Assembly (NCBI RefSeq): GCF_035083965.1
Contig: NC_089735.1
Location: 12,088,501-12,152,500, forward strand
Reading direction: 5' to 3'
From: Branchiostoma lanceolatum
Taxonomy: Eukaryota; Chordata; Leptocardii; Amphioxiformes; Branchiostomatidae
DNA length: 64,000 nucleotides
Positions 6,010 to 49,000 of the stretch are shown here, in pieces. The first letter of the stretch is position 1. Each line of letters opens with the position of its first letter. The notes beneath the pieces are model-generated. The model had not been told where the DNA came from. It did not search any database and saw nothing but the letters and a program-made list of their open reading frames with translations. The translations under genes were made by a program, and so were the position numbers.

Positions 6010-7960
6010 TCAAATCGCACGTTTACATGCAATGAATGGAGGGATATGATGATGAACCATCACATATTGTTGATAAGACTTGCCCTGACTTATACCAACA
6101 ATTATATTTACTGGTACTGAGTCACTGTATGCGTTTCCGTACAATGTGTTAACATGTTGTTCCGGATGGGTTTCTTCTTTTTCATATCCCAAGACCATGA
6201 TGGGTTAATCCCAGCACGATGTCCAATTTCCTGAACAACCAATTTGACCTCGCGTCTTCAATCCCTTGTATTGGTGAATGAAGAACTCACACTGAAGCAA
6301 GACTTTGTTCTGAGTCGAAGTTTCCTTCTTATCCTTTCCAAACTTCACACTTAGTCCTGATTGGCAAGTATTCAATATGTAGTCTTACCTGTACTCCTTC
6401 CGATCCATATGTCTTCTTAATCGTCTTCAACCAACTCTTAAATGGCCCGAGGCCTGAACTTACGTCTTCAACAACGTCTTGTCCAGTTCTTTTATTGTTC
6501 ATTGATAAAACTTGTCCTGGTTAAGAAACGGAAGTCTGATATAAATCTGTGTGCGTTTAAGTACAAGAAATGTTTCCTTCCTTTTTTGTCCCCTAAGACC
6601 ACAATAGATAAACCCCAATTATACAGTCAGTCTCCCTTGAATTGGTGAATGGGCAGCTAACACCAAAGCAGTACTTTGTTCTGAGTCTAAGTTTCCTTCT
6701 TGTCCTTTCCAAACTTCACACTTAGTCCAGATTGGCCTTCCGATCCACATGTCTTCTTAATCATCTTCAACCAACTCTCAAAATGGCCCTAGGCCTGAAC
6801 GTACGTCTTCAACAACGTCTTGTCCCGTTTTTTATCGTTCATTGATAACACTTGCCCTGGTTAAGAAACGGAAGTCTGATACAGATCTGTGTGCGTTTAA
6901 GTACAAGAAATGTTTCCTTCCTTTTTTGTCCCCTAAGACCACAATAGATAAACCACAATTATACAGTCAGTCTCCCTTGAATTGGTGAATGGGCAGCTAA
7001 CACCAAAGCAGTACTTTGTTCTGAGTCGAAGTTTCCTTCTTGTCCTTTCCAAACTTCACACTTCGTCCAGATTGGCAAGTATCCAATATGCAGTGTTACC
7101 TGTACTCCTTCCGATCCACATGTCTTCTTAATCATCTTCAACCAACTCTCAAAATGGCCTTAGGCCTGAACGTACGTCTTCAACAACGTCTTGTCCCGTT
7201 TTTTATCGTTCATTGATAACACTTGCCCTGGTTAAGAAACGGAAGTCTGATACAGATCTGTGTGCGTTTAAGTACACCAAATGTTTTCTTTCTTTTTTGT
7301 CCCCCAAGACCCTAATGGATAAACCACAAGAAGAATGCCCGTCTCCCTTGTATTGGTGAATGGGCAGCTCACACCAAAGCAGTACTTTGTTCGTTCTGAG
7401 TCGAAGTTTCCTTCTTATCCTTTCCAAACTTCACACTTAGTCCTGATTGGCAAGTATTCAATGCGCAGTGTTACCTGTACTCCTTCCGATCCATATGTCT
7501 TTTTAATCATTTTCAACCAACTCTCAAAATGGCCCGAGGCCTGAACTTACGTCTTCAACAACGTCTTGTCCCGTTCTTTTATCGTTCCTTAGAAAGACTA
7601 GCCCTGGTTAAGAAACGGCAGTCTGATATAGATCTGTGTGCGTTTTAGTACACGAAATGTTTCCTTCCTTTTTTGTCCTCTAAGACCCTGATAGATAAAC
7701 CACAAGAAGAATGCCCGTCTCCCTTGTATTGGTGGATGGACAGTTCACACCAAAGCTGTACTTTGTTTGTTCTGAGTCGAAGTTTCCTTCTTATCCTTTC
7801 CAAACTTAACACTTAGTCCTGATTGGCAAGTATTCAATATGCAGTGTTACCTGTACTCTCTCAAAGCCATCTGTCTTTTTCAACCAACTCTTAAAATGCC
7901 CCTAGGCCTAACCTTACGTCTTTGTCCCATTCTTTTATCAGTCGTTCACTGCAAAACTCT
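6010..7960. repeat. Satellite-like tandem array, period 340-376 bp, about five and a half copies
   Basis: The string TTCTGAGTC followed by AAGTTTCCTTCTT recurs at about 6308, 6679, 7019, 7394 and 7770, giving periods of 371, 340, 375 and 376 bp. Other blocks recur in fixed order: CTCCTTCCGATCCA, AACAACGTCTTGTCC, and GTGTGCGTTT followed by GTACA. A decayed partial copy begins near 6010. The shorter 340-bp unit lacks an internal block. The 60-74 codon open frames inside it repeat with the array and are not credible genes. Confidence 0.9.
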
Positions 7961-17026: not shown

Positions 17027-19785
<2,759 letters not shown>

Positions 19786-21113: not shown

Positions 21114-22235
21114 AGCCAGCTCTACGCACTATGAATGCATTTATATGGTTCATGTCACCATCAAGAAAAATACATATGCATGGTTCACGTCACCTTGAAG
21201 AAAAAAAATCTTACTAAAAAAATCAAGCTTCATAGAGCTGGCTCTAGCACAATGAATGCAGACACATGGGTCACGTCACCCTAAAGAGAATTTGCATAGT
21301 AGTACATTTTAGCTCCATAGAGCTAGCTCCATGGAGCTAAAAGTACAACCCCACGGCAGCTTTTCAGCTTCGTAGAGCTGGCTCTTTTTCCAGCTTTGTA
21401 GAGCTGGCTCTACGCACTTTGATTGCATACTCATGGTTTGCGTCACCCCCCATTTTTGTTAATACTCCACCATGGAGTATTGCCAGTGATAGCTCTGGTT
21501 AATGTTAAATAAGCTTTATAGAGCTGGCTCCACGCACAGTGAATGCAGACTCATGGTTCACGTCACCCTCAAGAAAGTTTGTATCCCTTTTAGGTCCATA
21601 GAGCTAGCTCCATGGAGCTATTGATACAACCCTTCGGCATTTTTCCAGCACCGTAGAGCTGGCTCTACGCAAAATGAATGCAGACTCATGGTTAACGTCA
21701 CACTCAAGAAAAAAAATATACTCCGCATGTATATACGTTCTGGTTAACGATAGCGGGCTTCATAGAGCTGGCTCCACGCACAATGAATGCAGACTCATGG
21801 TTTTCGTCACTCTCAAGAAAATTTGTATATATGGTTCACGTCACCTTTACAAAAATAGAAATTACTCCTCCATGGAGGGATTTTACATAACGTAACTTGG
21901 CGGCTCCACGCACAATGAATGCAATACATGGTTCACGTCACCTTTACGAAAATAGAGATTACTCCTCCAAGGTGGGCTTTACAGAACGATAAATATAACT
22001 TGGCGGCTCCTCGCACAATTAATGCAATACATGGTTCACGTCACCTTGACAAAAATCACTCCCCCATGGAGGGCTTTACCGAACGATAAATATAACTTGG
22101 CGGCTCCTCGCACAATTAATGCAATACATGGTTCACGTCACCTTGACAAAAATCACTCCCCCATGGAGGGCTTTACCGAACGATAAACATAACTTGGCGG
22201 CTCCACGCACAATGAATGCAATACATGGTTCACGT
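21114..22235. repeat. Left subterminal array of about ten degenerate units
   Basis: The core GCACAATGAATGCA followed by TCATGGTTCACGTCACC recurs about every 100-130 bp (near 21,131, 21,253, 21,539, 21,675, 21,785, 21,915, 22,018, 22,113 and 22,215). Units are more diverged than in the right array. They align to it in inverted orientation. Confidence 0.85.
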
Positions 22236-22678
22236 CTCCTTAGTCCATAATCCATATAGCCTATGAAGGAACTCCCTAGAGCTCTTCTGCGACCCGTCCT
22301 TGGAGGTCAGTGCTCGTAGAGTCCTGCTGCAGTCCCGTTAGAGACTACAGAAGACTAAGAAGGGACTACCGTGGCTGTGTCACCATTTTTATGCGGTGGT
22401 CATGGTGTTCGTAAGACCTTGGCGACCAGAACAAATACGTGTAGGAAAATGTATTCATTTGTTTATACACTGAATATTTATTTCTTTGGTTGTGCCTTGG
22501 TAGAAGGAAGGTAGATTGAGCATTCGTGTCACCGCACGTTTGGTCGACGGGAGACTAAAGTTGCTGAAATCAAAGGGACAAGAGGATAGACCTGCACGAA
22601 CATGCCTGTCGTGAACGTGCAAAAGAAAGGGTTGTGTTGTGTTGCATTGTATTCAGGGCTATTATATTGCATTGTAAC

Positions 22679-23876
22679 GGAGCCTGCAAGTGAAACCCTG
22701 CCCGCCGGGCCGGAAATACAGTCCTGTAACTAATTACAGTTGCTAACCCCCTGGTGAATGAGGATTGCCCGTTACTCTGCAAACAAGTCAAATTTATGGT
22801 TGGCGTCACGAAATCAGCTATTAGTAATCATTTCAGACTAAAGCACTAGTATATAAACCACAGATGTAGAATATCTCCACAGTAGTAGCCTCTACCAGGC
22901 TCCGTCCTATCGTTGGGAAAATACAGTAGTAGAAATCAGCCGAGGTACTCCGCTATACAGGTAGGTCCGCTATACGTAAGGTTCCATTTCGATCTAAACT
23001 AAAATTGTTGTTAATGCTGTACGTGTGCGTTGATAAACAAACATTAGGGATATATGTAGTTTGTTATAGTTTGATTGTTTAACTGACTGAAAGCAACAAC
23101 TTCACTGTCCTTTGTCATTGAATAAAAATGAACCCTGTGGTTTACCAAGGAGGTTTAAATAGAAATTAGAGCCCCCATTATAGGGCCCGGGGCGGAACGC
23201 GGCCGGCGTGAAAAAGAAACTTTCACACCATGAAACCTGTGGTCTGCTGTGAGACACGCCCACGATACTCTCTGCCAGTGAAAAATGTGTCACCCGGCTG
23301 TTGCTATGGTAACGGCCCCCGAAAGTATCTACTGGATGTAATTATGTAAACAAAATGCGGCCGTGCATACACGGGACCGCCGCGCGAGTTCATTGTTCTT
23401 ATTTGGAGGCGCGGAAGGCGGTTAGATCAGAGGCATTTGTCGGCTCCTTGCAAACACAAAAACACCCAACGAGAGCAAGAAGGTTTTAGATCTACATGTA
23501 TGAATAATAACTTATTGACGAGAGTAATATCATGCGCCTTTATCTTTTGTACGATGAAATTGGAGACAAAAATCTTAAATGTTGACATAATTGTTAACTT
23601 AAAATCTAAATCGAACAATAAAAAAGGTACCCACTAGTACCGTTAGTAGTACCACGGAACGACCCAAGCGAGCGGCGCCTTTAACCTCCTTGGTAAAATG
23701 TTGCAAACTTTATGACATAGGCAGCCGATGTAGCTCTAACATTTACCAGGACTTTTTCCAAAAGCGGATAGGAGGAAAGTGACGCCACTTTGTCGCGTCG
23801 ACTATCCAGATAACACAGGCAGATTCCTGGTAGTCTCTACCAGACTAACTACGCCAGGGTTTCACTTGCAGGCTCC
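22679..23876. repeat. Nested inverted-repeat segment inside the foldback element
   Basis: A perfect 22-bp inverted repeat beginning GGAGCCTGCAAG (22,679-22,700 and 23,855-23,876) brackets about 1.2 kb. Inside, near 22,886, is a copy of the TAGCCTCTACCAGGCT terminus also seen at 28,977. Target duplications are not obvious. It may be a separate insertion. Confidence 0.6.
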
Positions 23877-24876: not shown

Positions 24877-25530
24877 GATTTTGCATTGAAAGTGCGTGGA
24901 GCCGTAGGAAATACATGCGTCAACAGCTTGTAATCATTGTAAGTTCGCTAGCGTTCTCCGTAGAGATGTTTTTACATTTTTCTTAGCGGTAACGTTAACC
25001 ATGATTTTGCATTGAAAGTGTGTAGAGCCATTGGATAACACGTTAGAGCAGGCTGTAAGAATCGTTGGCCGTAGAGTGGCGTTCGCATATAGAGATTTTT
25101 ACATTTTTCCTCGGGGTGACGTTAACCCTGATTTCGCATTGAAAGTGCGTAGAGGCATTGGGATACACGTTATAGCAGCTATCGAGCATGGTGGCGGTAG
25201 AGCGGCGTTTCCGAATAGAGATTTTTACACTTTTCTTAGGGGTGACGTTAACCCTGATTTTGCATTGAAAGTGCGTAGAGGCATTGGGATACACGTTATA
25301 GCAGCTATCGAGCATGGTGGCGGTAGAGCGGCGTTTCCGAATAGAGATTTTTACACTTTTCTTAGGGGTGACGTTAACCCTGATTTTGCATTGAAAGTGC
25401 GTAGAGGCATTGGGATACACGTTATAGCAGCTATCGAGCATGGTGGCGGTAGAGCGGCGTTTCCGAATAGAGATTTTTACACTTTTCTTAGGGGTGACGT
25501 TAACCCTGATTTTGCATTGAAAGTGCATAG
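24877..25530. repeat. Right subterminal array, 126-bp unit, six copies
   Basis: GATTT(T/C)GCATTGAAAGTG starts at 24,877, 25,003, 25,130, 25,256, 25,382 and 25,508, giving periods of 126 or 127 bp. The last copies are almost identical and the first two are diverged. Because 126 is a multiple of three, long open frames of 199 and 182 codons arise on both strands (25,031-25,630 and 25,043-25,591). They are repeat artefacts, not genes. Confidence 0.93.
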
Positions 25531-26371
25531 AGCCAGCCAGCTCCATGGAGATAGAAAAACTTTGCCGCAATGCTGCACTAATCTGCTCCATGGAGCTAGC
25601 TCCATGGAGCCAGCTCCATGGAGCTATTAGTGCAGCTACTATTGGATCATCCTTATGTAATACAACTATATGTACACTTTGAAACTATTTCTGCTTTATG
25701 AAGCTTCTCTGTCCAAATAAAAGATGACTTTCATCAATAATGGTGCCTTTTATTTTGTTGTAACGTTAACGAAAGAATGACATTAAGATTTTAAAGATGA
25801 ATATCATATTCTAGTACTAGTACTACATCTTCTTAAGGTGCTTTTTCTCCATAGGGATCATACAGTCATATGAATTCCAATTCTCAGTCATGTACATATG
25901 GAAAAGCCATGTACTACGAGTATGATGTAGATATATGATTATTAGTACCATAAAGCCACACATGTACATGTATGCATACACAAACCATTCCGTTTTCTGG
26001 ACAAAAGCACACAAAAACTTATGTTTCAAATTCTCTGGTAAAGGTAGAAAACTAACTCCATTGGTGGACAGGTCCCATTGACCAATATCAAAGCAAAATT
26101 GTCATTCTGGATCTTGTATGAACTTGAACTACATGTAACATCTCTCAGCCCTTATACAGGGAGGGTCAACTGTAAGAAGGTACCGGTATGTATATTTCAA
26201 CATTAAATGACCCATGCTTTCTGACAAAACTCTAGCAAAAGAAAACTGGTCTTTCATCTTGAATCCCTCTTAAATTTAGCATGTCTGCTTGGTAACATGT
26301 TGTACAATGTCTTGTATTGCACTTGTAACAGTGGGGATCAACCTCCACTAACTGACCAGTCTAACTGGTCC

Positions 26372-26510
26372 GGACCTTTTAGCCTAGTGGTTAGCGTGTT
26401 GGATTCCCAAGCCATGCGGATCAGGTTTTTACACACTGGCGGATAGTATACATCAAAGAGGCAACCTCCTTGTTGTATACATGAAGAGACAGGTAGATAC
26501 CAATATTTCA
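26372..26510 (+). mobile_element. tRNA-like SINE head
   Basis: TAGCCTAGTGGTTAGCGTG resembles a polymerase III A box and GGATCAGG a degenerate B box about 35 bp later. It is in plus orientation downstream of GTF2H5. The tail is unclassified. Confidence 0.5.
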
Positions 26511-26529
26511 GCACACAGGTATGTGTTCC

Positions 26530-27283
26530 TTATTTCTGTTGAACGGGGAATGTTAGTTGATCGAAGAGGTTGTCGATCTTCTCTTGCAGGAGGTCCACGA
26601 TGTCAGCGGAGATGAAGAGATGAGTGTCGTCTAAATCCTGCATGACAAACTTCCTGCCCAGGGCGTTCTTCTCATCCAGGTGGAGGAGGAACTGCTTCAT
26701 GGCTGGGTCACTGGTGAAGAAAGGGAGGACTGTTTTGTTACCTCAGACAACACAACATAACTGTAAACATCCACTACATACTAGCAACTATCAAGTCATG
26801 AATATGACAAACTCCAAATCGTCAGATGATTTTACTTTCTGTTGTAATTTCCAATGCAATTAAAATGTTAATTTAATTATTTATCATCGTATAGTTTATT
26901 CCACTATTGCTACTGATAGAAATATGGGGTGATTCATCAAAGTTCAGATGTTATGATTCTTAAAAAATGACATATTTGTGTTACAATATCTAGGTACCTT
27001 ATAACGAGTAACATATCTAATATGATACTTCTGAAGAGTCTGAAATGTATAAATAGATACATAAATAAACTATTGTATGCTCTCTATTCAGGAATTCTGT
27101 AAATGTTTATTCTCTTAGAAATATCACTCACAGTGATTAACTATCATAATAATACAGGCACAAATTATGGAACTAGCATGGTTCAGAATCAGCACGCAGT
27201 CACCAGTCCACTATAATTTTTCTACAGAGAACCACTCGATATGCTCACCATTCAACCAGCACTCCTTTCAGGACATTAACCAT
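26530..27283 (-). CDS. GTF2H5: TFIIH subunit GTF2H5 (TTDA/Tfb5)
   Basis: There are two coding exons on the minus strand: 27,283-27,249 ([11 protein letters not shown] plus two bases) and 26,710-26,530, joined by a GT/AG intron. They give exactly 71 residues, the length of human GTF2H5. The second exon carries the family signatures [29 protein letters not shown] and [12 protein letters not shown], and ends QQK. The protein is the smallest core TFIIH subunit. It stabilises the complex through p52 (GTF2H4) and supports XPB in nucleotide excision repair and transcription. It lies head to head with HADH, the start codons being about 440 bp apart. The first exon is only 35 bp of coding sequence. 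Confidence 0.96.
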
Positions 27284-27726
27284 CTTGTACACCAAAGTCT
27301 ATAGATGACCTGGGTGAAGATAAAAGAGACTAAGTCTTGTTCATCAGAGGAATGGCCTAGTTTTAGCCAGTTATACCATAGGTCATCCAAAAAATTGCAT
27401 CCTTTCCACCATGTTGGCCTGTCTTTCAGAGTGATAGCTGTTCACTTCAAACAGTTTTATGCCTGCTTAAAAGGGATACTTTTGTTGAGTCGTAGAGTGA
27501 TTCATGACGTATAACTATATAGTAAAATATATAAAAAGAAACTAGATAAGTTAGTGACAATAATACAAGCTTATGTGAGAGTTATGATTATTGATAAAGA
27601 GTAATGTCAAGGCACTAAGTATATCCCCGTCGAACTACTTGAAGGGCCTTGTCGACCTTTGACCTATAGAAGTCGACTTGTCTGGTTCACGTTTTGTGGA
27701 GTTCACAAGGACACTGACGAAAAGAA
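27284..27726. promoter_or_regulatory. Shared divergent promoter region of GTF2H5 and HADH
   Basis: The 443 bp between the two start codons contain no repeat and no other gene, so the two genes probably share a bidirectional promoter. I see no TATA box that is clearly placed and no CpG-rich core. The role is inferred from spacing and orientation. Confidence 0.6.
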
Positions 27727-30700
27727 ATGTCTCTGTCGGCGCTCACTTACATAGCCAGACGAGGGATGGCCACCAAACTGACCGTGAAGAGTATGGCCAT
27801 TATCGGCAGCGGTCAGATGGGCGCAGGGATCGCACAGGTCAGTGGGAAACCGCAGGGTGACCCTCGTGTATGGAACGTGGCGCGGCGTATGCTCTGTGTA
27901 GCCCCTCCCACTTTTACTAAAAGTTAAACTTTTACAATTTTTTTTTGTTGTTGTCGTGCTGTTATTGTTGTTGTCGTGTACAACATTGTTTTGATTAGTG
28001 TTTTTATCCTAACGTTGCTAAGGTTGCATACATTTTAGGAGGGGAAGAAACCGCAATATTGTAAATTATTCGAACGTGGTCAAAAATCTAAATCAGTAAC
28101 TAACGTTGTACTTGACATTTCTCAAACTTTCACAAAACAAGATTTGCCCTTAATTCTCACGTGGCAGGTGATTTAATAGTGTTTTTGTTCTTACGTCAAT
28201 AGAAGCAGTGTCTAATGTGTGCATCTAAAGCTAATGCATTTCCTCAGTAAAACGTTTGAACCGTCAAACACGACTGTTAGTGCAGTTGCGAAATTGGGAC
28301 ACATACACAGTGACGTACTTGAAATGTAAACAAACGGCACTCTGTTGTATAGCAACTATGATTGTATAGGTGATTCTTCAGTGACTCAGCATGAAGTGAA
28401 AGTATTCTATAGATTCAAATGATTAATCATGAATCTATATAATGATGCTGATTGAACTCAGCAACTGAAAATATTAATCTATCATTTATCTTCTAATTTT
28501 AGTCTTATTCATTTTTCAAAAATCATCTTATTTATTGATTTTGAAATAAATATTTGTTCATATCACAACATAGGGCCTAAAAGGCTAAATAACAATTTAC
28601 TTCATGCTCAAACTATGCCAGCTAGAATACTGAAAGGTATCTCTGATTTAATAGTAATTATGACTATATAAGCATGCCTGTATACCATACTTGGTGACAA
28701 AGAGTTCTAAGTCTACATACAAACATGTAACTGTTACATGTTTCTCCCAGGTGGCAGCTGCGACAGGCCACAAGGTCGTTCTGTGTGACACGGCAGGAGA
28801 CATTCTGGAGAAGGCGCAGGCCGGCATACAGAAGAGCTTACAGAGGGTCGTCAAGAAGAAGTACGCAGATGACCCTGAGGTCAGTACATATATACTACAT
28901 AGTAATAGAGGCTTTTTTCTTTATCTGTTTGACATTTCTTAGAACATGTAACAGCACAGGTTAACTGTATCTTCCCTAGCCTCTACCAGGCTCCGCTGAT
29001 CGCTGGGAAAATAGTAGAAGTCGGCCAAATAGAGTGAATAGTATGCCAAGGATAGTCCGCTATACAGGGAAGTTCAATAGGCGACCAACTTCCCTGCATA
29101 GCGGACTACCCTTGGCATACAATTCACTAGTACTCTATTTGGCCGATTTCTACTATTTTCCCAGCGATCAGCAGAGCCTGGTAGAGGCTATATCTTCCCA
29201 TGTTTTCAAGGTTTTGAGCACATCAATCTAGTTTTGTGGCTCTTAGAAAAAAAGTTGGATTTATAAAGATAATGCTGAAATAGTGGCAACAGGAAAAGGG
29301 ATCCTTAAGGAAAAAAGATCCTTACTTAGTTAGAGATACCACACTACTTTCAAGATGGGGTGTCATTCTATAATTCTGCATCACCTGAAAATACTGCAGC
29401 TACAGTGCCAAAAATTGCCATATATCATGTTGACCTCAATAGAAATATAGCTACTGACATGTCAAATTTCAAACAAATCCATTGATAAAAAAAGATCTTG
29501 AGTTATATTTTAAGATATTTACTTATTCAAAATTTTATCCTGTTGCTTGAGTAACTATTTTTGGCGTATCTTATTACCTGGATGTCTAACCTTCATCAAC
29601 GTATCTTGAGTTATACTATAACTTATAGGTGTGAACACATAGACACACACATAAATAATATATTTATCAGAAACTATAATGATTGTTGTTTTTCTAATTT
29701 CTTTATCAGAAAGGCCAGGAGTTCATCACCAACACCATGGCTAACATTGAGACGACCACTGAGCCGGCCAAGGCCGTGGTGACAGCTGATCTCGTGGTGG
29801 AGGCCATCGTGGAAAACCTGGCAGTCAAACAGGATCTGTTCAGAACACTGGACAAATTTGCACCTGCGTGAGTCTCAAGTTGGAGGTTTTGTTTATTCAA
29901 AATATTCTTTTGAGTAGCAAACAAAGTACACACCTCATATTTGATCTGTAGACCATGCCAATTTAATTTGTTGCTTCTCGGAATAGTCTGTCCTGTTTTT
30001 CGAATTCCCATTTTGAGAAAAATTGAGTCACTATTCACATTCACAAATTTGAACTCCCAATTTTACTATCTGTTCAGTTGTAAAACTCAATAGCCACCAA
30101 AATAGGTTATATACCTAAAATGTGTGGTCACATTGGTCATAATATGTTATAATTTATCATTTTTTAAAACTATTTCTCAATATCAATCCATATATTACAT
30201 GGCAAAAGGTAATTTTGTTACTGAAATTATAATACTAGATCAAAGAAGGTGGTGCATTGCATAGAATGAGCCATACAAAGCCGAAACGTGAATAATTCTC
30301 TTATTCTTTAAGTTATGTAAATCCTTATCTTTACCACAGACTATTTCAAAAAATTCTATTTTTTTTTTCTGAAAAAATCTGAGAAGCAACAAATAAAATT
30401 GGTGTGGCCTTATGTATACAAACTAATCACAATGATTGATGCACTGTTTGCTTCCAAACCAGCTGCCATGGTGACTGTGACATCATAAAAAAAATTCAAT
30501 TCAATTTAGCACCTGGAGGCAGGAATCAAGAACTGGAAGTATGATTTGTACTGATTTGCAATAATTCAAAATCATTGAATTTAAAAGGATATACATTTGT
30601 ACAAATGTCTATGTACATTGAATGATGATTATTGTGATTTAATGTAATCAGGAACTTTTCTGTTTTGGTGTCATTGGTGTTACAATAGCACTTTAAAGAT

Positions 30701-33162
30701 GACTAACTTTCGTTGTCTTGTCTCCAGGAAGACTATCTTTGCCAGTAACACATCCTCCCTGCCCATCACTGCCATCGCCGACAGCACAAAGCGCCAGGAC
30801 AAATTTGCTGGTCTTCACTTCTTCAACCCTGTCCCTGTCATGAAACTAGTGGAGGTACATTATGAAGTTATCCGTTATAACAGTTACTGTATGTTCAATA
30901 TCATTACTTCACCTTAGAAGAGTATACTAGTAGTTTTTTTCAGTGCTGTTTGTTCTGTTGAATCCCTTGGTTGAATTGTTAGTTGAAGAATTAATATCAG
31001 GATGATTCAATCAATTATGAGTGGAGGCTTTAACTAAAGGAGTGAGTGAGTTTGGGCTATGTGTAACCTGTATCTTAATTGTAGCCAATAATTGTATGAC
31101 CAATATTCTATGACAACAGCCTAAAGGGGACATTCTGTATTAAGGTGAAAAATGTTGATACCACACCAAAGTGTATAATACCAACCTGCAAATTGTACAC
31201 AAAATTTAGGGTTGTCAGAAAAAATGTAGACAACAGGTATTTTTGCAAGACAGAATCATCATAATGAATCATTTTTTTTCAGAAATTTGGAATAGATAAA
31301 GTATTTGAACCCTGAATTACACCAAAAGCTGGAATTGCCAAATCTCTCATTCAACTAATTAATGAATAAACAAATAGATATATAGATAGTTTGTCTGTGC
31401 CCCCTCTGTAGGTGGTCCGAGCTCCAGGTACCAGTCAGGAAGTGTACGAGTGTCTGATGGACTTCAGCAAAGCCATTGGCAAGCACCCTGTCACTTGTAA
31501 GGTAAGAAATTATACATTTAATCATCAACCTTGAATAGCAATAACAGAAAGAGATGTTCAAACTACTGTGAAGAAATCTGTGATAATCAGTGGTTTACCT
31601 AAAGATTTGATAGTATGTTTCAAATCATTGAACACAATGCACAAGTGCAAGTACTGTATACGCATTTAATGATATGTATATTCTATGTAGTACTACATAT
31701 ATTAGACTGCAGAATAAACTGACTGTGACTTGTGATACGCTGTTTTCCCCATACACAGGACACGCCCGGCTTCCTTGTGAACAGGTTGCTGGTACCATAC
31801 ATGTTGGAGTCTGTTAGGTTATATGAGAGAGGTCAGTCATATACAAATAATGCACTTAATCAATACAAGCCTATTTAGACATTTTCTATAGGATATTCAG
31901 ATAGATTAGAGTCATGCATTTAGTAACTGTAGAGCACTGAAAAATGCTAGTATGATGTATGATGAAAGACAAATTGAAATTTATTTCATAAAATGGTAGT
32001 AGAGCCTCTATGGAACATTTCTATATTAAACAATTTCTCTCAAATTTTACAGCTTTCAGCACTCAAAAATTATATTTAGCTCATCAGGTATACATACTAG
32101 TACTTTTGAAGTGAATTAGGATGTTTTGGCGAGTGTACATTATAACACTCCACAGGAGATGGGAGTAAAGAGGACATAGACACTGCCATGAAACTTGGAG
32201 CAGGCTACCCCATGGGACCATTTGAACTCCTAGACTTTTGTGGGTTTGACACAACCAAGTTTATCATAGATGGTATGTACGTTTCTTCACTTTAAATCTG
32301 AGAATATTAAATCCCTTACTACAATCCACAGGAGATGGAAGTAAGGAGGATATTGATGTTGCCATGAAACTGGGGGCAGGCTATCCCATGGGACCATTTG
32401 AGCTGCTAGACTATGTTGGACTGGACACATGCAAGTTTATCATAGATGGTATGTATCAGGTCTGATTTTAGCATGGAGAATCATCTTTGTAACATTGGTT
32501 AAGTCTGTCACACAGTACTGTACGAAAATCAATTGGCCAAGGAGTCTGCAAGATCTAATTTATATGCCTGATGTTCCCTTGATCTTCTCGTGATTTTTAG
32601 AGATTGGTTGATGTTTGCAGATCCCCAAGCCTTGTCCAATGTTATGTGGTAGATTTTCAGGTGAAAAAGATGCTTGAGTCTCTGGCAATTCTTAACTTTG
32701 CATTTGGCGACCTATATATACTGGTGATCCACAGATATGGCTGAAGCTTGACGGGATTAGAGAGCATTAAATTAAAATTTCTTCCAACTTGACAGAATTC
32801 ATCCCTAGTGCACCTATGTCTAAGCCTACAGCCTTCTTCATAATTACTATATTACTAACCCAGTTACTCTCAACATGTGACTATCCATCACATTAGATTA
32901 GTGATGTTGAAATAACGAAAGTAGAAAGTTAATTTGCTTTCATTCCAATGTTAGTATTAGTCCATTGAAAATGTTTGAATGCAAGATTAGAGTCTGGAAG
33001 CTAGGTTTTAGGTTTAATAACTTTTATCACCTTTACCCCTCAGGTTGGCACGAGTTGGAACCAGAGAACCCTCTCTTCGAACCCAGTCAGTTGCTGAATG
33101 AACTTGTGGCAGCAGGCAAGCATGGCAAGAAAACAGGGGAGGGTTTCTACAAGTATAACTAA
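27727..33162 (+). CDS. HADH: Mitochondrial 3-hydroxyacyl-CoA dehydrogenase with duplicated exon 7
   Basis: Exons are 27,727-27,837, 28,751-28,879, 29,710-29,867, 30,728-30,854, 31,412-31,501, 31,759-31,831, 32,156-32,272 (7a) or 32,332-32,448 (7b), and 33,044-33,162. All junctions are GT/AG and in phase. With one exon 7 the protein has 307 residues (human 314). The enzyme oxidises L-3-hydroxyacyl-CoA with NAD in the mitochondrial matrix, the third step of beta-oxidation. The N-terminus is basic and lacks acids, as a targeting peptide should. GSGQMGAG (27-34) is the NAD-binding Rossmann loop. SNTSS, the catalytic-type His near 163 in [15 protein letters not shown], Glu near 175 and Asn near 213 are all present. 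Exon 7b (LLDYVGLDT) is closer to the vertebrate sequence than 7a (LLDFCGFDT). An AATAAA lies at 33,980. Confidence 0.97.
28977..29190. mobile_element. 214-bp foldback MITE (TAGCCTCTACCAGGCT family) with 9-bp target duplication
   Basis: Almost the whole element is a hairpin: the left arm from TAGCCTCTACCAGGCTC pairs with the right arm ending GCCTGGTAGAGGCTA. A perfect 9-bp direct repeat TATCTTCCC flanks it at 28,968-28,976 and 29,191-29,199. It lies in the second intron of HADH. Related ends occur near 22,886 and 53,099. Confidence 0.92.
29526..29601 (+). mobile_element. Dispersed retroelement 3' end, truncated (copy B)
   Basis: It matches the second half of the elements at 9175-9300 and 54,110-54,228, including GTTGCTTGAGTAACTATTT, TGGCGTATCTTATTACC and CTAACCTTCATCAACG. 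The hammerhead-like start is missing. It lies in the second intron of HADH. Confidence 0.8.
32156..32272 (+). other. HADH: HADH alternative exon 7a
   Basis: This is a 117-bp exon entering and leaving in phase 1, with acceptor CCACAG and donor GTATGT. It encodes [20 protein letters not shown] then [13 protein letters not shown], part of the helical C-terminal dimerisation domain. It is as intact as its neighbour 7b. Confidence 0.92.
32332..32448 (+). other. HADH: HADH alternative exon 7b
   Basis: It has the same 117-bp length, phases, acceptor (CCACAG) and donor (GTATGT) as 7a, only 59 bp downstream. It encodes [13 protein letters not shown] where 7a has [13 protein letters not shown]. About 20 of 117 bases differ, more than half of them synonymous, so both copies appear to be under protein-level constraint. 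Confidence 0.93.
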
Positions 33163-33408
33163 CTCACCACATCCCAGAACTACATACATGTACATGTAGC
33201 AACTGCCCTATTTCCACATCTACAGCATACCGGGGAATAATGTGAGAAAAGAGGACTATCAAATGTTTCTTTTACACATTCGCTTGACACAAGAAGACAT
33301 GTGTAAAGGATAACTTCTAATACATTATAGATTCATCACTTCTCCAAAACAGTACAAAATTGTCAACATGAATCTGAATTATGATTGTATAGATTTTCTC
33401 TTCACATA

Positions 33409-33922
33409 CGAGGGGCGATCAATAAGTCCTCGGCCTCACTCAGGAATAAGGTACACATTAACTCAAATTTTGGGAATAATTTTACGGTGTGAAGTCTTTT
33501 ATGAATGTCTACCAAAATTCAAATCATTGTGATCATTACTTTGCTGACGACACTCAGTAGAAGGATAAAAACATGGACAATTGAGCTGTGACCTGAGGTG
33601 TGCAGGTCAGCTTGCTCTGCTGATAGTCAGATACCCACATCATTGAAGTTGAAATAAGAAGGGAATCCTCATCAAACATTTTGACAATGTCTTCGAAGAT
33701 ATTATGAACGCGACCCACACAGCTCTGATCACAGTGCACCCTTGTTTTTCTTGTCACTTACCTACAAGTTTTCAAATGGACGTCGACTAAAAAGTATTGG
33801 CCACAATAATTTGAAGTTTGGTGGATATTGCTGAAAGATGTCATACTACATAATTATGCCCCGAAATTTGAGTTGTGCACCTTATTTCTGGGTGAGGCCG
33901 AGAACTTATTGATCACCCCTCG
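33409..33922. mobile_element. 514-bp mariner-like non-autonomous element
   Basis: The ends are inverted repeats, CGAGGGGCGATCAATAAGT at the left and CGAGGGGTGATCAATAAGT read from the right, flanked on both sides by TA (33,407-33,408 and 33,923-33,924). This is the terminus type of mariner elements. The inverted identity extends about 40 bp. The 67-codon minus-strand frame inside has no DDD catalytic motif. It lies in the HADH 3' UTR, about 60 bp before its AATAAA. Confidence 0.9.
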
Positions 33923-33979
33923 TATCCTTAGTACATGTGTGGAATGTGTAGAACTGTGCTTCCAGAGTGATGTGCTTAG

Positions 33980-33985
33980 AATAAA
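33980..33985 (+). terminator. Polyadenylation signal AATAAA of HADH
   Basis: This canonical signal lies about 820 bp after the HADH stop, just beyond the mariner-like element. No canonical AATAAA was noticed nearer the stop, so this is the likeliest 3' end. Confidence 0.5.
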
Positions 33986-34239
33986 CTAAACTTGCTGCAG
34001 ACTTACAACTGAACATTCTATTTTTGAGATGATATAAATATAATTGATTGTAGGCTGTTTGTTTTGATGCCTTGGTTGACTTCTATCAGTGAATGATTAA
34101 CAAAACATAGAAGAGTTTAGGTACAGGATGAAACGATTGTGGCCAGCAGACACATGAAGATGATTGGACAAATATGACAGATTCACAAATTTGAGGTATT
34201 TATTGTAAGTTCCTCACCAGTAGAAACAACACACCCAAG

Positions 34240-34358
34240 TTTTCTCCAAGCAGAGGTTTCGGTTAAGTGGGGTAGGAGTGTCCAAAATAAAACGGAAAAG
34301 TAGAAAGACATATAAAATACCGCGAAAATACGTCCATCTTACCTCTGCTTGGAGAGTA
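34240..34358. mobile_element. 119-bp foldback MITE (TCTCCAAGCAGA family) with 9-bp target duplication
   Basis: The ends are TTTTCTCCAAGCAGAGGT and, inverted, TACTCTCCAAGCAGAGGT. A perfect 9-bp direct repeat ACACCCAAG flanks it at 34,231-34,239 and 34,359-34,367. It is non-coding and lies between HADH and the fucosyltransferase gene. Confidence 0.9.
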
Positions 34359-34889
34359 ACACCCAAGCTCACTTGAGAAGTACATATAAAATCAACCACT
34401 AGACTAGACCAACTTTATACAGCATTGAAGGGAACATATAGAATATGAAATAGGCATTACATTGTATGTAATAATGTTTTGCTCTCCAGCTGAAGTAAAA
34501 TATTAAATCAAACAACTTATTTTTTCCAATAGCAAAAGATGTAATTTTACTAAGATTACAACTTGCAGTGTAAAACAAAAATCGTTGTGCGTGTTTTGTG
34601 TAGACTTAACATATACATGAATTTGTGAGTGCAACTAAGTTGAAACAACATTAAACAGCAGGTTGCTACTGGTAGTTCTTATGTTTAAATGTCTTTGTCA
34701 TCACTTAACTTGAAAAAATGTTCATGCAAAGTAAGTGAAATATTACATTATATTCTAACCGCAATGCAGTTAAGACAACCCATTTGCCAGTCACTGCAAT
34801 CCATTCCTCTCACAGACTGAAAGGTGGTCTTGGGTTTTTGACTTGAATCTATAGCTTCAGGGTTCAAAACACTGGTACTGACAGGCCCA

Positions 34890-35165
34890 AATGTTGTGCC
34901 TTTGGGAAAGACAGCAGCTTTACACCTATTTCCTCACTTGACTCAGGTGAAAATGAGTACCTAGCTTTGGTTAGGGACATCCTCTTGGATGGTACGTAAA
35001 GCCGGAGGTCCCGTGTAAGAGGGCAGCCACACCTCGAGCATGTTAAAGAACCCATCACACTTATTGAAAAGAGAAGGGGTCCATCCCTGTGTGAGTCAGG
35101 ATATAACCTATCAGTCTATTCTGGCACAGCTTGTACAAAACTGGTGTGTTACGCCCAAATTCGTT
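34890..35165 (+). mobile_element. SINE with conserved central core
   Basis: Blocks include TGCCTTTGGGAAAG, GGTACGTAAAGCCGGAGGTC, AGCATGTTAAAGAACCCA and GGTCCATCCCTGTGT. Parts recur at 18,000-18,175 (minus), 38,783 and 55,572. The block ending in CATGTTAAAGAACCC is typical of the conserved central domain shared by several metazoan SINE families. I cannot assign the subfamily. Confidence 0.65.
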
Positions 35166-35715: not shown

Positions 35716-38700
35716 CTATCTTTCTTCCAAAACCCACTCCAGTCTCTTACCCCCATGTTCTCTTTGCAGTTTCTCTAAATGTGATAGATATTCTTCCTGT
35801 GTCATATTTTTACCTGATAGAACATAATGATGTAAAGTTTTGGCACCAAACCCTGCTCTATCATACATCTGTAGCCACATGTCCATTTTTCCCTGGTTTT
35901 GTGGTAACTTTGGCCTTGGGCAGCCATAGTGGTCCTTCGTAGCTACATGCCTGACAACATGGAGATTCTCCATCATGTCTCTGTGAATTCTATTGCACAT
36001 AAAACATTCAAACCCCTCAATGAAGTTTATTTTGGTGTAGTCATCTATACCCCATTCTCTCGTCTTCATATGTCTGATGAGCTTCTCGTTTGTGACCTTG
36101 ACGAACTTGTAGTCCAAGTATTTTTCATACTCAGCATCGTCGTTGTTAAGGTTGGTCAAAAACTCAGCGAGCTCTTTTGGACCTGAGAAGTCGCTCGCAA
36201 GTATCGCAGACTTGTTACTTGGCAGCCAATCTTTGATGCTCGGGGATCCAAAATAGATGGGCACTGAACCGAGATGCAGTGGACGCCACAGTTTCTCTGT
36301 GATGTAGTCCTCGCAAACCGCATTCTCGAAGGCTAGAGTGAACTTGTACTGGGCCATGATTTTGTAGAAGTCTGAGTCATCCATTGTCAGTGGGTCCTCT
36401 AGCTTCTTAGGTAAGTCTTTATTATGAAGACACTGTCCGTAAGCATCCACACCTATGTATTGCATCAGCTCCTTTACATAATTGTCTCTGTCCGAAGGTG
36501 GATCACAGTCGGCATGAACGTAAACAAGAGGAGACAAAGGGAGAGAATTTTTCGTCTTCGTCGGTACGAAATATTTCTTATCAGTCAGGTCGTCGAGTTT
36601 GCCCAAGTACTGAGTTGTGAGAGGATAGTCCGAGTGTCTGCGGAACGTGGCGGTGTGGTTGAAGAGGTTCATGACTGGCTCGTGGCAGAGAAGGTAGTTG
36701 TTTTTTGGCGACTCCTCGTGGAAGAGTGCCCATTCATGGTGTGCCTTCCTGGGGAGGGGGAGGTCCTTGGGACTGAAGTCCGTTCCATAAAACACAAACA
36801 CCTGCAAGAAAAAACAATATTCAAATGAAAAATCAAAACATATCCTGTTACAAGATAACTCTTACACCTGGCCTGTCAAGCACCCAGTGCAGCCAACCAC
36901 CTCCAGTGATAAGCCACATTTAAACAGTCCTGTCCAATTTTAATGTTTTTTTAAGACCCTCTCATCAGATGAAACCACCCCAGTCACTGACTGATCTTTC
37001 TCGGTCCCTTTAGGGGTCGTTGTGTACTTAATGTGTTGTATCATCATTTGGTTGTGACAATTTCATGGGTATAGATAATAGGCAAATTTTGTTGTCTTTC
37101 ATGAGAAGACCCTGCCATGGCCTTACTTTCATTTACCAATCCCTTCTTGAAAAAGACTACAAACTGTATCAGTGTATGTTTCTGAAAACCTGACGCACTG
37201 AAATGCTTGGAGGTACCAGTATTAAGAGTGCTTGAATTAAGGTTATCAAAGCCTTGATTAATTGTATAAAGTGCCCGGCTACACTTAACCCTTAATACTG
37301 TTTTGTGTGTGGGCCACGACACCAGAAACAGCTGCCTGTGGCCCACGTGTATTGTACTGTTTGCCATCTCAATAAATCACAAATCAAATCACAACCCACC
37401 TGTGTTTTGGGGTGATCCTTGAAGTGTCTGTCCACAGTAAAGAAGCACTTTCCAAGGTCACACTGCTTCACTTTCCCTCGCTCTCCTGTCAAAGGTGTCC
37501 ACCAAAGTATGATGGGAACTTTGATGTCCATTTTGGAAACGGAAATGTTATCCCTGTCATGTTCATCAAGGTCATCTGAAACAAACGGCATGCTTTTTTT
37601 ACTCCAGTGTCCTTTTTCAGTTAACCTTCTCCCTGCTGTCTAGACGCGGCGACTGTTGGAGGGCTTCTTTTACTTGCAGTCTTACACCTACGGGCTAATG
37701 TATAAGACTGCAAGTAATAGAAGCCCTCCAACAGTCGCCGCGGCTACCTACTGCCTAACTCTGTAACCAATAGAGAATGGGGTGCCAAACTAACGGCTAA
37801 GAAATGAAAAAGAATGATCCCTACACTTTGTAAATTGACTTCCAATTGAGCTTCGTCTATGTTATTTCAAATTGACAGACACATTTGTATCTGTAATATA
37901 TATATAGCTGGTATAACTGTCGTTCTTTATAACACACCAGCTTCAAAAGCATAAAGCGCAGCAGCAGCTGGTTATATAACAATGAACGACCTTTCACACC
38001 TAACCTATGCACATCTTGCTGCAAGCATTTATTTAAAGCTTTAGGGATAGTAGACATATGGATAGAGAGTAGGCATTAATTAAAAGTTGGACATTCTAAT
38101 TTTTTCAATCTTAAGAAACACAGATGGTCTATCTGAAAGTGCTCAGAGGTTAAGGTGACAGGAGTTAAACATTTAATAGACATCATAGCTCATATCAGTT
38201 TCTTCACTGTTAAAATCAAATTTTACCACTGGAATGTCATCATTACATCGGATGTAAGTGTACTTGTTTTTGTTTGGTTGCTTTTGTGCCTAGTAGCATA
38301 TGCATTCGAGCCAGCAAGCTATTCTGGCTATGTCTGACCGTTCGGTGTAATATGACCAGCTGCTGCCGAGCCGCGTGCCTGCGATGCTGGTGTGTTACAC
38401 CTAATGGCGGTTATACCGGCTATATAGATACAGATTCAGATATCTGAAGTAAGTTCCGAAGTACAATGTATATAGGAAGAGCAGGTTTATTGTGTACATT
38501 GTTTAAGTATTATAGGTTACATATAAATACATCCCTAATGTTCTCATACCCCTTAACCATAACCCTAACAAAGGGGTGTTGGAACATAGGAATGTCCCTA
38601 TTTAAGTAATTATATACTAACCAAGAACAAGTCTTCCTCCGTAGTCCACACTTCTCTCCATCCATAGTCCATCCTCTAAGAGATCCCATTTCTCCTCCTC

Positions 38701-43087: not shown

Positions 43088-46000
43088 TCACGCTTTGTAC
43101 CAAACCTCGAAATGGTTCCATCCAATGGAGGCCAGTTTAGGACAGGTCTGGAACTTCAACGTGTCCAGAGCAGACGTGATGACGTCACTCTGGGCCATCA
43201 TGTCTGCGCGGCTGATCTCGTCGAACCACTCCTCAAATGCAGTCTGGAAGAGAAATATAAAATATAATAATAAATATAAAAGAGAAACGCATCTTAGGTT
43301 CGGTCTTATCAACATTTTGTACATATGTACAAACATAAATACTAAACATCTACATAATACCTCCCAAGCAGAGGTTAGGTTACGACTTGTTTTGGCAATA
43401 TATACCAAGAAAAACTCATAAAATAGAAATAAGCAGACAAATGCCTGTAAAGACGTTCAAAATAAACCAGAGCCTGATCTCTACTTAGATAGTACTATAT
43501 GCGAGAATATACGGGTACAAACTCGTTATGCATACATACATACACACATACATACATACTTACATACATACATACACACGCACACACATACATTCATACA
43601 TACACACATACATGCATACATACATACATACATACATACATACATCCATACACACATACATACATACATACATACATATACGTTGTATAAACATTCAAAC
43701 GAACTGTATATCAGTTACATTGCAATTATTCATTTGAAGTTGGTGATGGTTTCAATTTTTATGTATCTGCATGGAAACGCGTGCAAATTTGTGTTTAGTT
43801 GTCTCCTTCAAGAGGCAACAATTACCGTGTCAAACTTAAGTTCGTGGCTTTACTTTCATCTAAGAATAACAACCGCCTCACCTGCAGCATCTTAGCTCCC
43901 TTGGTGCTTGTCGGGACGTACTGGTCACTTGCAATGAGAGTCATACGCTTGACGCCAGGTTTGTGAGATGGTGATTGACAGGAGTGAGGAAACCTGGACA
44001 GCAGTCCCACCGCCTTGATGGGCCCCTTATGCAACAGTTTTCCTGCATTAGCATAGACTTGGGAGGCCGCTACTTCACTAAAGAGCACTACGAACTCCAT
44101 GGACTTTGACCGATTCAAAGCGGATATGACGTCACAAAGGTCCTGATCCGGAAATGTTGAGACGTCTAGAATCAGGTACTTGATGGCAGTCGTCCGCAGG
44201 ATCGTCGGGACAACGAGAGAGGCTGATCCGTAGCTCAACAGAAGTTTGTTAACCATGCCTCTTTGTTTGAAGATTGTTTCCAGCGAAGAAGACAGAAGGC
44301 TTGAGCAAAGTGGGTCTTTCTCTGACTCACTGATATTGAGACTCAAGGCAGCGAGAGTTTTGTGTTTTCCAACATCAACCGAAATGAGATGCAAGAAAAG
44401 GGCGGCAGAAGTATTCCCGGTGAGAGAGAGGGACGACAGAAAGGCTCCCAGCTTCAGGGTACGAAGGTCATCTTCGGAGAAACTCGGCGGTCGGTCGTGC
44501 TTCTGACGAGAGGAGCCGAACATGCTCAGCCGGACTTTCCTTAGACTGTCGCTGGACAGAATCCTCGACACCGCCATGTTGATCTCGTGGACCGGCATGG
44601 ACTTGCACCGGAGAGGGATGTCCAGGTCTATACTGGAGACGGAATGGTTTGCGTGTAGAACAGACGACATTGATTGCAGATCGCAGGCTACGGGGAAAAG
44701 TGGAAGGCTGATGTGCTGTAAGGTCTTACAGACTCCAATGGTGCGGAGTAACTGTCTGAAGCCCGGGACGTCGCTAGCGGCAGTCCACCTGTCGACTACG
44801 ATGGCCGTGACGAACGGGTCGCTGTGTTTTTGGTCCGAGTGCAACATCGTCGATATCGTTGCCAGGTAGTTAGTTGGAATGTTGTAGAATCGATTCTTCA
44901 GTTTAGTGGTCACGTCGAAGGAGCCGTCGTCGACAAAGGAGGGGAGAACAATCTCCACCAGTTCACCATGAGGGGCACACTCGTACAAACATGACAGGCA
45001 CAGGTTGTTCGCCAGCTCACTTTTGTCTCTCACTTCTGTCCATGTCTCGAAGAAGTAATGAGCACGATCCTTTAAGAGCCCTGCCAGGAATATGCACACC
45101 ATGTACATGTCAGGATTCGGAATGACCTTCGCGAATTGCTCGACGGTAAAGCCCTGTTCCGACTCGGCAAGGTAGTATGCCGTGAGATACTCTTGGATCG
45201 TCTTGTGAAGGAAGCGCCACGGACGTTGAGACAGACGCCTCGCCCAAGTGTCTTGCGCGAGGAGTCCAACGTGAATGAGGTTTGGGATGTCCTCCAACTC
45301 TGGTTCCTGAAACACCATTCGGTTTTCTTCGAGCCCCTTGAAGGCGACCTGGCCGAGAGTGACGAGGACATTACGAACATCCGCGAGCACAAGCTCGGCT
45401 TCCGAGCAGGGTTGCCCGATACGTTCGAAGTAGCGACGCACGAGACATTCTATGAGCGTTGAGTACAGCTGTGTAAGTGTGGCGGGGAGGGCTCCCTGGT
45501 TATCCTCCCAGAGTGCACACAGGAAAACCGCATTCAGCGGGTTCAAGGCTATCCCTGACAGTGGAGTATTCGAACGGATGCGCTGCAGAAGACCGTCTGC
45601 GGAGGCCCTGTCTTCCCTGTAGAGGTGATGACAAATATATATAGTTTACAAAACAGCATATTGTTCTTCTTCTTCTTGTCATCCTGACGGACGTTCAGTT
45701 CAACGTCGTCATATTGTAATGGAGTAATAGAATCATTATGGTACTAGTAATGCATATTCTTAAACAGGTATGAACCATTTCTTATTGAATGGTCATAATT
45801 GCAAGTGTGCAAGAGACAATTTAATGATAAGTGCTATTCGCAAGTTGACCAAATTTCTCTTATCTTAGCGTCGAAAGAACCAAGAACATTCTATATACCA
45901 TCCTATATAATGTCATTGAAAGAACTAAATGAAGGAAACATTGATGATAAAGTTGTAGCGTACCTGAAGTATCGTTTGATGAATTTTGACAGGCTCTCCA

Positions 46001-49000
46001 CTGTGTGTCCCTCTAAGATGTAGGCCTTGTCACAGCTCCTGAGGAGGGGGCAGTTGCTCTCTGGCCGGGTCGTGATCAACGAGAAGGCCCGGCGGAGCGG
46101 AGACTTGCTGAACGATTCCGCCATCTTTGCCTTGTGAGGAGACCTTACCTCATCCAGCCCGTCCATGATCACAAGGATCTGCTCAGGATTGGACGAGACA
46201 AAGTCCCATATGGCCTCCACTTCATCGTCTACCGCTTCGTCTGCTGCGATGATTTTCACGATCACGTCTTTCATGGAGGGAAAGCTGATCTTATTCATCT
46301 CAACTAGAAAAACCAACTTGAACTTCTTCAGTGACTGGATAGTGCCTTGCGCCCAATCGTAGGCAATTTTGTGGCACAGCATGGTTTTGCCGATGCCGGC
46401 AGGGCCCTCTACGAGAACGCAGGAAGGCCCGTCATCGAAAAGCCACTCTTCCTGGAAGCTGTAGGACTTCTCCATACAGTCGGCCGACACGCTTCGACGC
46501 TTCCCTTCCACGATAGCCAAGTTTGTATAAACCTACAAAAGACACAAATAACAGAAATATCTTATGCTGCGACTGTTGAAGTAACAAAATACTGCCTTGT
46601 CGACTGAACCTTCAACACGCCAATATGAAATATAAGGGTTACTGTCAGAATTGCATAGACATTCATTCACACAATGACAATTACTGGCGTTTGAGGAATC
46701 CGATGACGAATTAGCCAGTAATTAAGTTTCTGTAGTAACAGCAGGTATGCTACACGGGTAAGAGATCACGTGATATGATCTCCAGGTGAGGAAGGGGTAG
46801 ACAATAGGCACGAAGGTGCGGTCGGCATTCGACGCTGAGTCCGGCACCAAGCAGGCTGCTAGATCGATGAAAATCTTGAGTAAAAGTTTTAATTGAGTTG
46901 AATTTCAGTACCAGTACCTTTTGCGTTAGAAATACCAGATAACGCTGTTTGCCTAGCATACAGGCTTCGATGTATTTTCCCCAATTTCATGAATCCAGGT
47001 GGGAAACAGGTGCACTACAGAGTACCAAGTAGTTGACGGTGTTCGACACTGGGTGACGGCACCGACCAGGGCAGAAAATCGATAGAGTTTGAGGAAGTCG
47101 AGTAATGGTACAGCAAAGCTTCTCTCCGTTACCAACAATTATACCTAACTTTTTTGGAATGGCCCTTTGTATTTCAGAGAAAGAAATCCCAGAGAAAGTT
47201 GGTTGTTCTGCAGAAAGGCTTTGGTGTACGTCCCCCATTTTTTGGCCTTCGGTAAACGGAAGGTTTTTTAGGGGTTGCGTAGCTGGCAAACAACCTAGCT
47301 TATTTGATCTAATCACACAGAATGTCTTGGAGTGAAGAAGGAGTATATACTATTGGTTATTTACTGCTTCAGAGAATTGGGATCTGTAAATATGGTCATA
47401 ATGTTTTTTTTTTCTTTCAAATTTTGGCATGGCATTTGGATTAAGTCATAAACTTGACTCGCATTTGGCATGTGTTCAAATACGTTTTAGTAATTGCTGT
47501 CTTAAGGCAACAAATCATTCCTTTTCGGACTGGATTCCGAGCATTCGCCTCTGTACATTTGAGTGTCCTGCCATTAAAAACTTCTGCAGGTGCCCAAGCA
47601 CTTGCGCACATCCTAACACATGTGCCCGTGTATTACTGTGTGACGTATGAGTACGCATCGTGTGAGATGAATGTTGCTACGAGTGATACAGAAAGTTGAT
47701 TTTTCCACCTTCACTCTTCGACCGAGCGATTTAACAGAGCGCTCGACGGATTTCATAGGTAAAAACCAAATATTCTTATGCTTTGCGTGTTTTGTTTCCT
47801 TTCCAGTCATACTTTTGCCTTTTGTATGATATTTCAAATATAAACTCAAGAGTTGCACAAAACAAACTTAATACTGTATTAGCATTAGGGGGCTATAAGA
47901 CCACCAAAGCGATGTCAACACCAAGATCTAATAATAATTTATGATGATACGTTGATTAAGGTTAGATTATTTAATAAGATACCCCAACAATAGTTACTCA
48001 AGCAACTGGATAAAATGTTGGCTGTTGCTTGAGTAACTACTTTTGGCGTAAGTTATGATGATGATGACTAAATAGAGACAAACCTCATCCAGATGTAGAC
48101 GAAATGCCGGGTTCCAGGGAATGGGCTGGATCCACCCGTACTCGCACAGGTATCTCTTCTTCAGGTTTTCTCGACATTTCGCTATGGTGTCCTCGAGTAA
48201 AACAACGCCACCTGTGGAGATGAACTTTGCTCAACGCGTTATCAAAAACAACAAAAGGTCACATGTAGATTTGATCATGTCGCACATGTCGCTATGCTTA
48301 TGTGTATCTCTGAAGACACCAATATACATGTAGCTTTCTCGTCATGTCAAATAGTTTTGATAACGTGATCACAAATTAATAACATCCTAATATGTCACTT
48401 TTTACCTCCGTGAAATAGAGTTCAACGAGAGGTGTTACTGCTCTTGGTGTATCTTTTTATTTGTGCGATGCCCATGCTTTGGTCTGCAATAATGTTAAAA
48501 AATTGTGAATGGATTATGATGATGTTTGGTATTTGAGTAGGTCTTGGGAAGATAATGGTCAAAGTTGATTTTTGGATGTTTAGCATATGTTCTTATTGTA
48601 CAAGCAGAAAGAGACAGGATAACATATCAAATTACACGTTACCAAGACAGCCATCTACATCTGTCGGTGCCCTCAGGAGCATGTCAGCTAGGTGCGGATA
48701 CCCAAAATCCTCCAAGGCCGTCAGGAAGACAGGGAAGGCCCTCGGTCCCCGTGTAGCCAGGATGTCCAGAAAACGCTCAACCTGAAGTGCGAAATTATGT
48801 TACTGAAGTTTGCGCTTAGATCATATTGTATACCTGCATTGATTTTTCATGGTCTCTACCTTTGGTTACTAGTTCTCGAACAACGGTTTGTTACTAAAAG
48901 TTAACTAGCCATATTCTGTTAACTTTGTTATGATCGTGAATCCATGCACACATTATTTTTCCAAATATCAAAATGAGTTACAAGATGACGTTGTCAAGTT

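Follow-up and report, generated by a model that had tools for sequence, protein, structure and literature searches.

The lancelet gene for mitochondrial L-3-hydroxyacyl-CoA dehydrogenase (HADH) carries two adjacent copies of its seventh coding exon, here designated 7A and 7B. We consider it likely that the pair is an old tandem exon duplication, that both copies have been kept by selection and that they are spliced in a mutually exclusive manner, yielding two enzymes of 307 residues each. This reading was drawn from a window of 64,000 nt, the whole stretch of DNA analysed here, and the alternative use of 7A and 7B is what we infer from its sequence.

HADH lies at 27727–33162 on the forward strand of the window as a complete and intact gene, from which each isoform would be assembled with eight coding exons. 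The 7A and 7B isoforms each carry PF02737 (212 bits) and PF00725 (108–113 bits), that is, the N-terminal NAD domain and C-terminal 3HCDH domain by which an HADH is recognised, and each matches human HADH (3rqs/1f0y) at about 460 bits from residue 13 or 14 to residue 306. Lancelet S142, H163, E175 and N213 align by hand count with human S137, H158, E170 and N208; the catalytic roles of S137 and H158 are named for the human enzyme, and those of the Glu and Asn come from a bacterial homologue. With both Pfam domains, the catalytic residues and a near end-to-end match to the human protein in place, the gene is the one that the initial annotation had named. At its 3′ end exon 6 contributes one base of a Gly codon (phase 1), and the introns measure, in order, 913, 830, 860, 557, 257, 324, 59 and 595 nt, so the one between the two copies is more than fourfold shorter than the next shortest.

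Table 1. Coding exons of the lancelet HADH gene and the intron separating the duplicated exons (window coordinates)
Feature	Position	Strand	Basis and remarks
HADH coding exon 1	27727..27837	+	ATG to donor; GT donor, frame, tblastn
HADH exon 2	28751..28879	+	Gene model, tblastn
HADH exon 3	29710..29867	+	Gene model, tblastn
HADH exon 4	30728..30854	+	Gene model, tblastn
HADH exon 5	31412..31501	+	Gene model, tblastn
HADH exon 6, upstream partner common to both copies	31759..31831	+	Gene model, tblastn
Exon 7A, 117 bp	32156..32272	+	Direct-repeat search, gene model, blastn/tblastn
Intron between 7A and 7B, 59 nt, GT-AG	32273..32331	+	Length no multiple of 3; stops in 7A frame
Exon 7B, 117 bp	32332..32448	+	Direct-repeat search, gene model, PF00725 score, blastn/tblastn
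HADH exon 8, downstream partner common to both copies, with stop codon	33044..33162	+	Gene model, tblastn

Several other features were recorded in and around the gene. Intron 2 holds a near-perfect long hairpin at 28977–29190 (outer 59-nt arms 97% and inner 42-nt arms 93% complementary), foldback or MITE-like in character; its end, CCTCTACCAGGCTCCG, has a similar counterpart near 22890. About 240 nt past the HADH stop begins a pair of inverted repeats (33406–33925; 52 nt, 90% complementary, 416 nt apart), probably a transposon-like element in or near the 3′ UTR. Upstream of HADH, at 24969–25532, a 126-bp unit is repeated in tandem about 4.5 times with 93% matches, and further arrays lie at 21893–22241 (97 bp) and 6396–7858 (340–371 bp). 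Next to HADH on the reverse strand, a 381-codon open frame (35716–36861) matches fucosyltransferase of glycosyltransferase family 10. Also on that strand, a NACHT domain at 45903–46532 and a second open frame at 43822–45645 with a sub-threshold NOD2_WH match probably belong to one NLR-like gene (43822–46532). On the forward strand, two open frames within 19045–19785 correspond to the first and second half of a CD225 domain and are probably consecutive exons, and a proline-rich frame without a Pfam match at 17697–17951 may belong to the same gene. The fucosyltransferase, CD225 and NACHT matches are in keeping with animal DNA. At gathering scores, Rfam gave no match in the window.

The exon pair stands alone in its surroundings. 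A direct-repeat search of 30000–35000 returned one family, two 140-nt copies (32140–32279 and 32316–32455) 84% identical at a spacing of 176, and this is the sole direct-repeat family of at least 40 nt in 26500–35000. When both 117-bp exons were compared with the whole window by blastn, they found one another at 82.9% identity along the full 117 bp (E 1e-30); the remaining hits were two chance ones of 15 and 17 nt, with E 0.81. Two exons of equal length in one phase, 59 nt apart, are therefore present exactly where they had first been placed. The description of their differences was equally accurate, with about 20 base changes, over half of them synonymous, and five residue changes claimed: we counted 20 differing nucleotides, distributed 4/4/12 over codon positions 1/2/3, of which 12 are synonymous and 8 nonsynonymous. 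From A to B the residue changes are T239V, F257Y, C258V, F260L and T263C in the numbering of the 307-aa product, and four of the five sit in the motif LLD(F/Y)(C/V)G(F/L)DT(T/C)KF, a clustering within 7 codons that is modestly unusual (P 0.036). The splice strings had been described as the same in both copies, which is true of the donors (identical over ATG/GTATGTA), but the acceptors are identical only in the last 7 intron bases; they share TCCACAG/GAGATGG and match only partially further upstream. Homologous neighbouring exons that agree in length and phase and have intact GT-AG boundaries are what a mutually exclusive pair would present. All four splice combinations are in frame, giving 307 aa with 7A, 307 aa with 7B, 346 aa with both (the 39 additional residues that had been foreseen) and 268 aa with neither, and if the 59-nt intron were retained behind 7A, a stop codon would follow within a few codons.

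The 59-nt intron itself bears on how the pair arose. It resembles the head of intron 7 joined to the tail of intron 6, with 35 of 59 positions matching at the best split, a level reached by 0.24% of 5000 shuffles in which only GTATGT and CAG were held fixed and wider splice signals were shuffled. In the five best splits, intron 7 supplies about 37–41 nt from its head and intron 6 the remaining 18–22 nt from its tail. The resulting 59% identity is an upper figure, since the split was picked as best and the wider splice signals contribute to it; a similar value, 54%, holds for the synonymous sites left unchanged between the exon copies. These matches support a single tandem duplication of 176 bp, in which one piece comprising exon 7 and some flanking intron would have given rise to two homologous exons. 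G232 and I267 are common to both copies where human HADH has A and V, a weak hint that the duplication may be later than the split from vertebrates.

Between the copies, dS is 0.70 and dN 0.094, a ratio of 0.13 (Nei-Gojobori; 26.3 and 90.7 sites), the dS estimate resting on about 26 synonymous sites. When 20 changes were placed at random, an average of 13.5 residues changed and 34% of cases included a stop, and five or fewer residue changes occurred in 0 of 20000 trials. We also simulated divergence conditioned on 11–13 synonymous differences, with 1000 accepted runs. With 7A free and 7B held at a ratio of 0.05, the median was 27 nonsynonymous differences, and the 8 observed, or fewer, arose with P 0.004; with both copies constrained at 0.13 the median was 7 and the same probability 0.61; with 7A half-relaxed at a ratio of 0.5 it was 0.11. 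Only 7A was simulated as free, and the comparison is pairwise. Within those terms, the simulations agree with the low ratio in favouring constraint on both copies, as the initial annotation had proposed, and it is unlikely that 7A has been unconstrained since the duplication; selection would have kept both exon 7 copies.

Comparison with relatives does not mark either copy as the damaged one. We counted residues at the variable positions in the best 80 of 560 confirmed prokaryotic relatives, gaps being included in the 80. Position 239 has T in 30 and V in 0; position 257 has F in 69, L in 8 and Y in 0; position 258 has I in 73, V in 6 and C in 0; position 260 has L in 76 and F in 0; and position 263 has C in 66 and T in 1. 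Human HADH has T, Y, V, L and T at these five positions. C258 and F260 of 7A are thus absent from human and from these 80 relatives, and so is V239 of 7B, while at 257 and 263 one copy has the common prokaryotic residue and the other the human one. Against PF00725 the 7B isoform scores higher than the 7A isoform (113.2 against 107.6 bits), and over the 39 residues 7B is identical to human at 35 and 7A at 34. Neither copy stands out as degenerate, given that 7B also has a residue unseen elsewhere and that the human identities are so close.

If the exons are used alternatively, the mRNA would take 6-7A-8 or 6-7B-8. An intron of 59 nt could not easily hold U1 snRNP and a branch-point complex together, so that 7A would rarely be joined to 7B, and this short intron probably enforces the predicted mutual exclusion. 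From its length, a branch point no closer than 10 nt to the acceptor would lie within 49 nt of the donor, and branch points 14–30 nt from the acceptor would be 29–45 nt from the donor. For human mutually exclusive clusters, a distance of less than 50 nt from donor to branch point has served as the steric criterion, and 57 of them (9%; 629 appear in the figure) fall within it (PMC5740500), which makes steric exclusion a minority mechanism in human. Branch points predicted from intron length fall below this threshold, which comes from vertebrates and may not be the lancelet's; on that vertebrate-derived scale, the earlier proposal that the gap is short enough for steric exclusion holds. An AG 30 nt from exon 7B suggests that the branch point would likely lie between that AG and the acceptor, roughly 30–45 nt from the donor. 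The 59-nt intron has no clear branch-point consensus at the usual distance, strict yTnAy occurring at 14 and 43 nt from the acceptor, and we found no figure for minimal lancelet intron size among the matches listed in the open-licence literature. The reading frame does not force exclusion, because including or skipping both exons keeps the frame, the exon length of 117 bp being divisible by three. The 7A acceptor has a pyrimidine fraction of 0.62, the poorest of the eight, the others ranging from 0.75 to 0.81; the notion that both exon 7 acceptors are the weakest was dropped, as 7B equals exons 2 and 6 at 0.75. The donors of 7A and 7B score alike and mid-range against consensus donor frequencies.

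Other accounts of the pair have to be weighed against this evidence. One copy, probably 7B, might be the only one used, with 7A redundant, seldom spliced and slowly decaying. We regard this as unlikely. The two residues of 7A that neither human nor the 80 prokaryotic relatives share, its lower domain score, its pyrimidine-poor acceptor and the tolerable fit of a half-relaxed 7A all lean that way, but a 7A free since the duplication has P of about 0.004, the exon is free of stops and frame shifts and its splice sites are intact, and 7B is similarly placed, with its own unseen V239 and a human identity of 35 against 34 of 39. Lancelet genomes are highly polymorphic, and two alleles of one exon could in principle have been placed in tandem by the assembly. 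An exon divergence of 17% at a dS of 0.70, an intron context particular to each copy and a 59-nt intron that resembles both flanks, the pattern expected of a real tandem duplication, make such an artefact extremely improbable.

The remaining accounts accept two working exons and differ in how they would be spliced. Inclusion of both, constitutively or as a regulated form, would give a 346-residue enzyme in which a segment of 39 residues is repeated. The frame permits it and there is a precedent in the vertebrate COE/EBF genes, where a helix exon was tandemly duplicated as in HADH, but both copies are in the protein, the duplicated exon having become mandatory (PMC2394523). That inclusion was proposed to need a new donor site, whereas the HADH boundaries are unchanged; with 59 nt between the copies, and a 39-residue repeat inside the 97-position 3HCDH domain that should disturb the fold, we find double inclusion quite improbable. 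Exclusion could also operate through competing RNA pairing or regulators acting on weak sites rather than through intron length. A weak complementarity between intron 6 and the 59-nt intron (10/11, 32105–32115 with 32286–32296) and small hairpins over the exon 7 acceptors (z −1.9 for 7A and −0.9 for 7B, against 0.2 to 1.2 for the other six) point in that direction. The intron duplexes were no better than shuffles, 43%, 90% and 24% of which matched or surpassed their energies, in a search for competing pairings that had low power with one sequence; most shuffles of the 59-nt intron also fold better than the intron itself, and folding of the region gave z −0.8. We judge this route very improbable, and retain mutually exclusive splicing, probably imposed by the short intron, as the preferred reading.

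What the two isoforms would do differently depends on where the variable residues lie. The initial annotation had put them in the C-terminal dimerisation domain; all five are indeed in that domain, but none coincides with a dimer contact in the list given for a bacterial homologue, the Faecalibacterium HBD. Phe230 and Ile231 of this enzyme sit in a hydrophobic core packed beside the active site, Phe230 touches the substrate-binding Asn139, closure shrinks the cavity, and the substrate-contacting residues are said by the authors to await mutagenesis (PMC11476959). The spacing His136-Asn139-Asn186-Phe230 (3, 47, 44) equals that of lancelet 163-166-213-257, by which Phe230, Ile231 and Leu227 correspond to lancelet 257, 258 and 254, where the commonest residues among the best 80 of 560 prokaryotic relatives are F, I and L. 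By this alignment, the exchange of F257/C258 for Y257/V258 maps to a predicted change in the core beside the active site, with F260/L260 nearby. The list of dimer contacts is internally inconsistent in its numbering by one (Ile187 and Arg187 are both given), and two offsets were tried. At +28 the listed Pro190, Met213 and Leu215 become lancelet P218, M241 and L243, and the list spans 211–231 plus 241 and 243; at +27 it spans 210–230 plus 240 and 242, and variable position 239 adjoins 240. As the five variable positions fall outside the listed contacts under both offsets, the dimer-interface reading was set aside. Since two of the variable residues map to the core and none to the listed dimer contacts, there is more reason to propose a change in how the cavity closes or which substrate is preferred than a change in dimer stability. 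With less certainty, the isoforms may differ in how they hold the acyl end of the substrate as the two domains close, a difference proposed because four of the five changes are in the motif beside the active site. A tentative extension, which we put forward as a possibility rather than an expectation, is that a splice switch retunes the HADH active-site cavity, so that one lancelet gene would supply different tissues or stages with two enzymes that differ in their acyl-chain preference or in catalytic closure.

Metabolic enzymes altered by the swap of one homologous exon include KHK-A/KHK-C, PKM1/2 and ACSL with its gate-domain exons; these differ from the HADH pair in being other enzymes under other regulation, and none is HADH. 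The nearest in logic among metabolic enzymes appears to be OGDH, whose exons 4a and 4b are mutually exclusive, with 4b branch points shown experimentally to lie 25–41 nt from the 4a donor (PMC7969005). OGDH shares with HADH a mitochondrial metabolic role, an ancient exon duplication and a branch point less than about 50 nt from the donor; it differs in its longer intron, distant branch points, long pyrimidine tract and tested splicing, whereas in HADH the whole intron is 59 nt and the splicing is deduced. Within lancelets, preGNAI, preGNAQ and preGNAS have local exon duplications and mutually exclusive exons in B. floridae and B. belcheri (PMC5896119). Like HADH, these G-alpha genes duplicated an exon or exon pair locally and their alternative exons differ in a functional region, but they encode signalling proteins and were compared in two species, whereas ours is a metabolic enzyme in one sequence. 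Among the matches listed in the open-licence literature, judged by title and the opening of the abstract, we found no report of an HADH exon pair or of lancelet HADH, and gene databases may already carry both as predicted isoforms; a cattle paper that matched 'mutually exclusive exons' and HADH was rejected, since the matching text concerns HADHB. The initial remark that no such vertebrate HADH is described has no bearing here, since lancelets lie outside the vertebrates.

Mutually exclusive use of duplicated exons is a known phenomenon, to which the HADH pair would add a further instance. Should both isoforms be produced, an exon swap would modify the active-site region of a beta-oxidation spiral enzyme in the lineage that is sister to the other chordates, and a metabolic enzyme would be added in a lineage whose local exon duplications are known from signalling genes. 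The pair would then also serve as a small, clean system in which to examine steric exclusion by so short an intron and the way in which a duplicated exon diverges.
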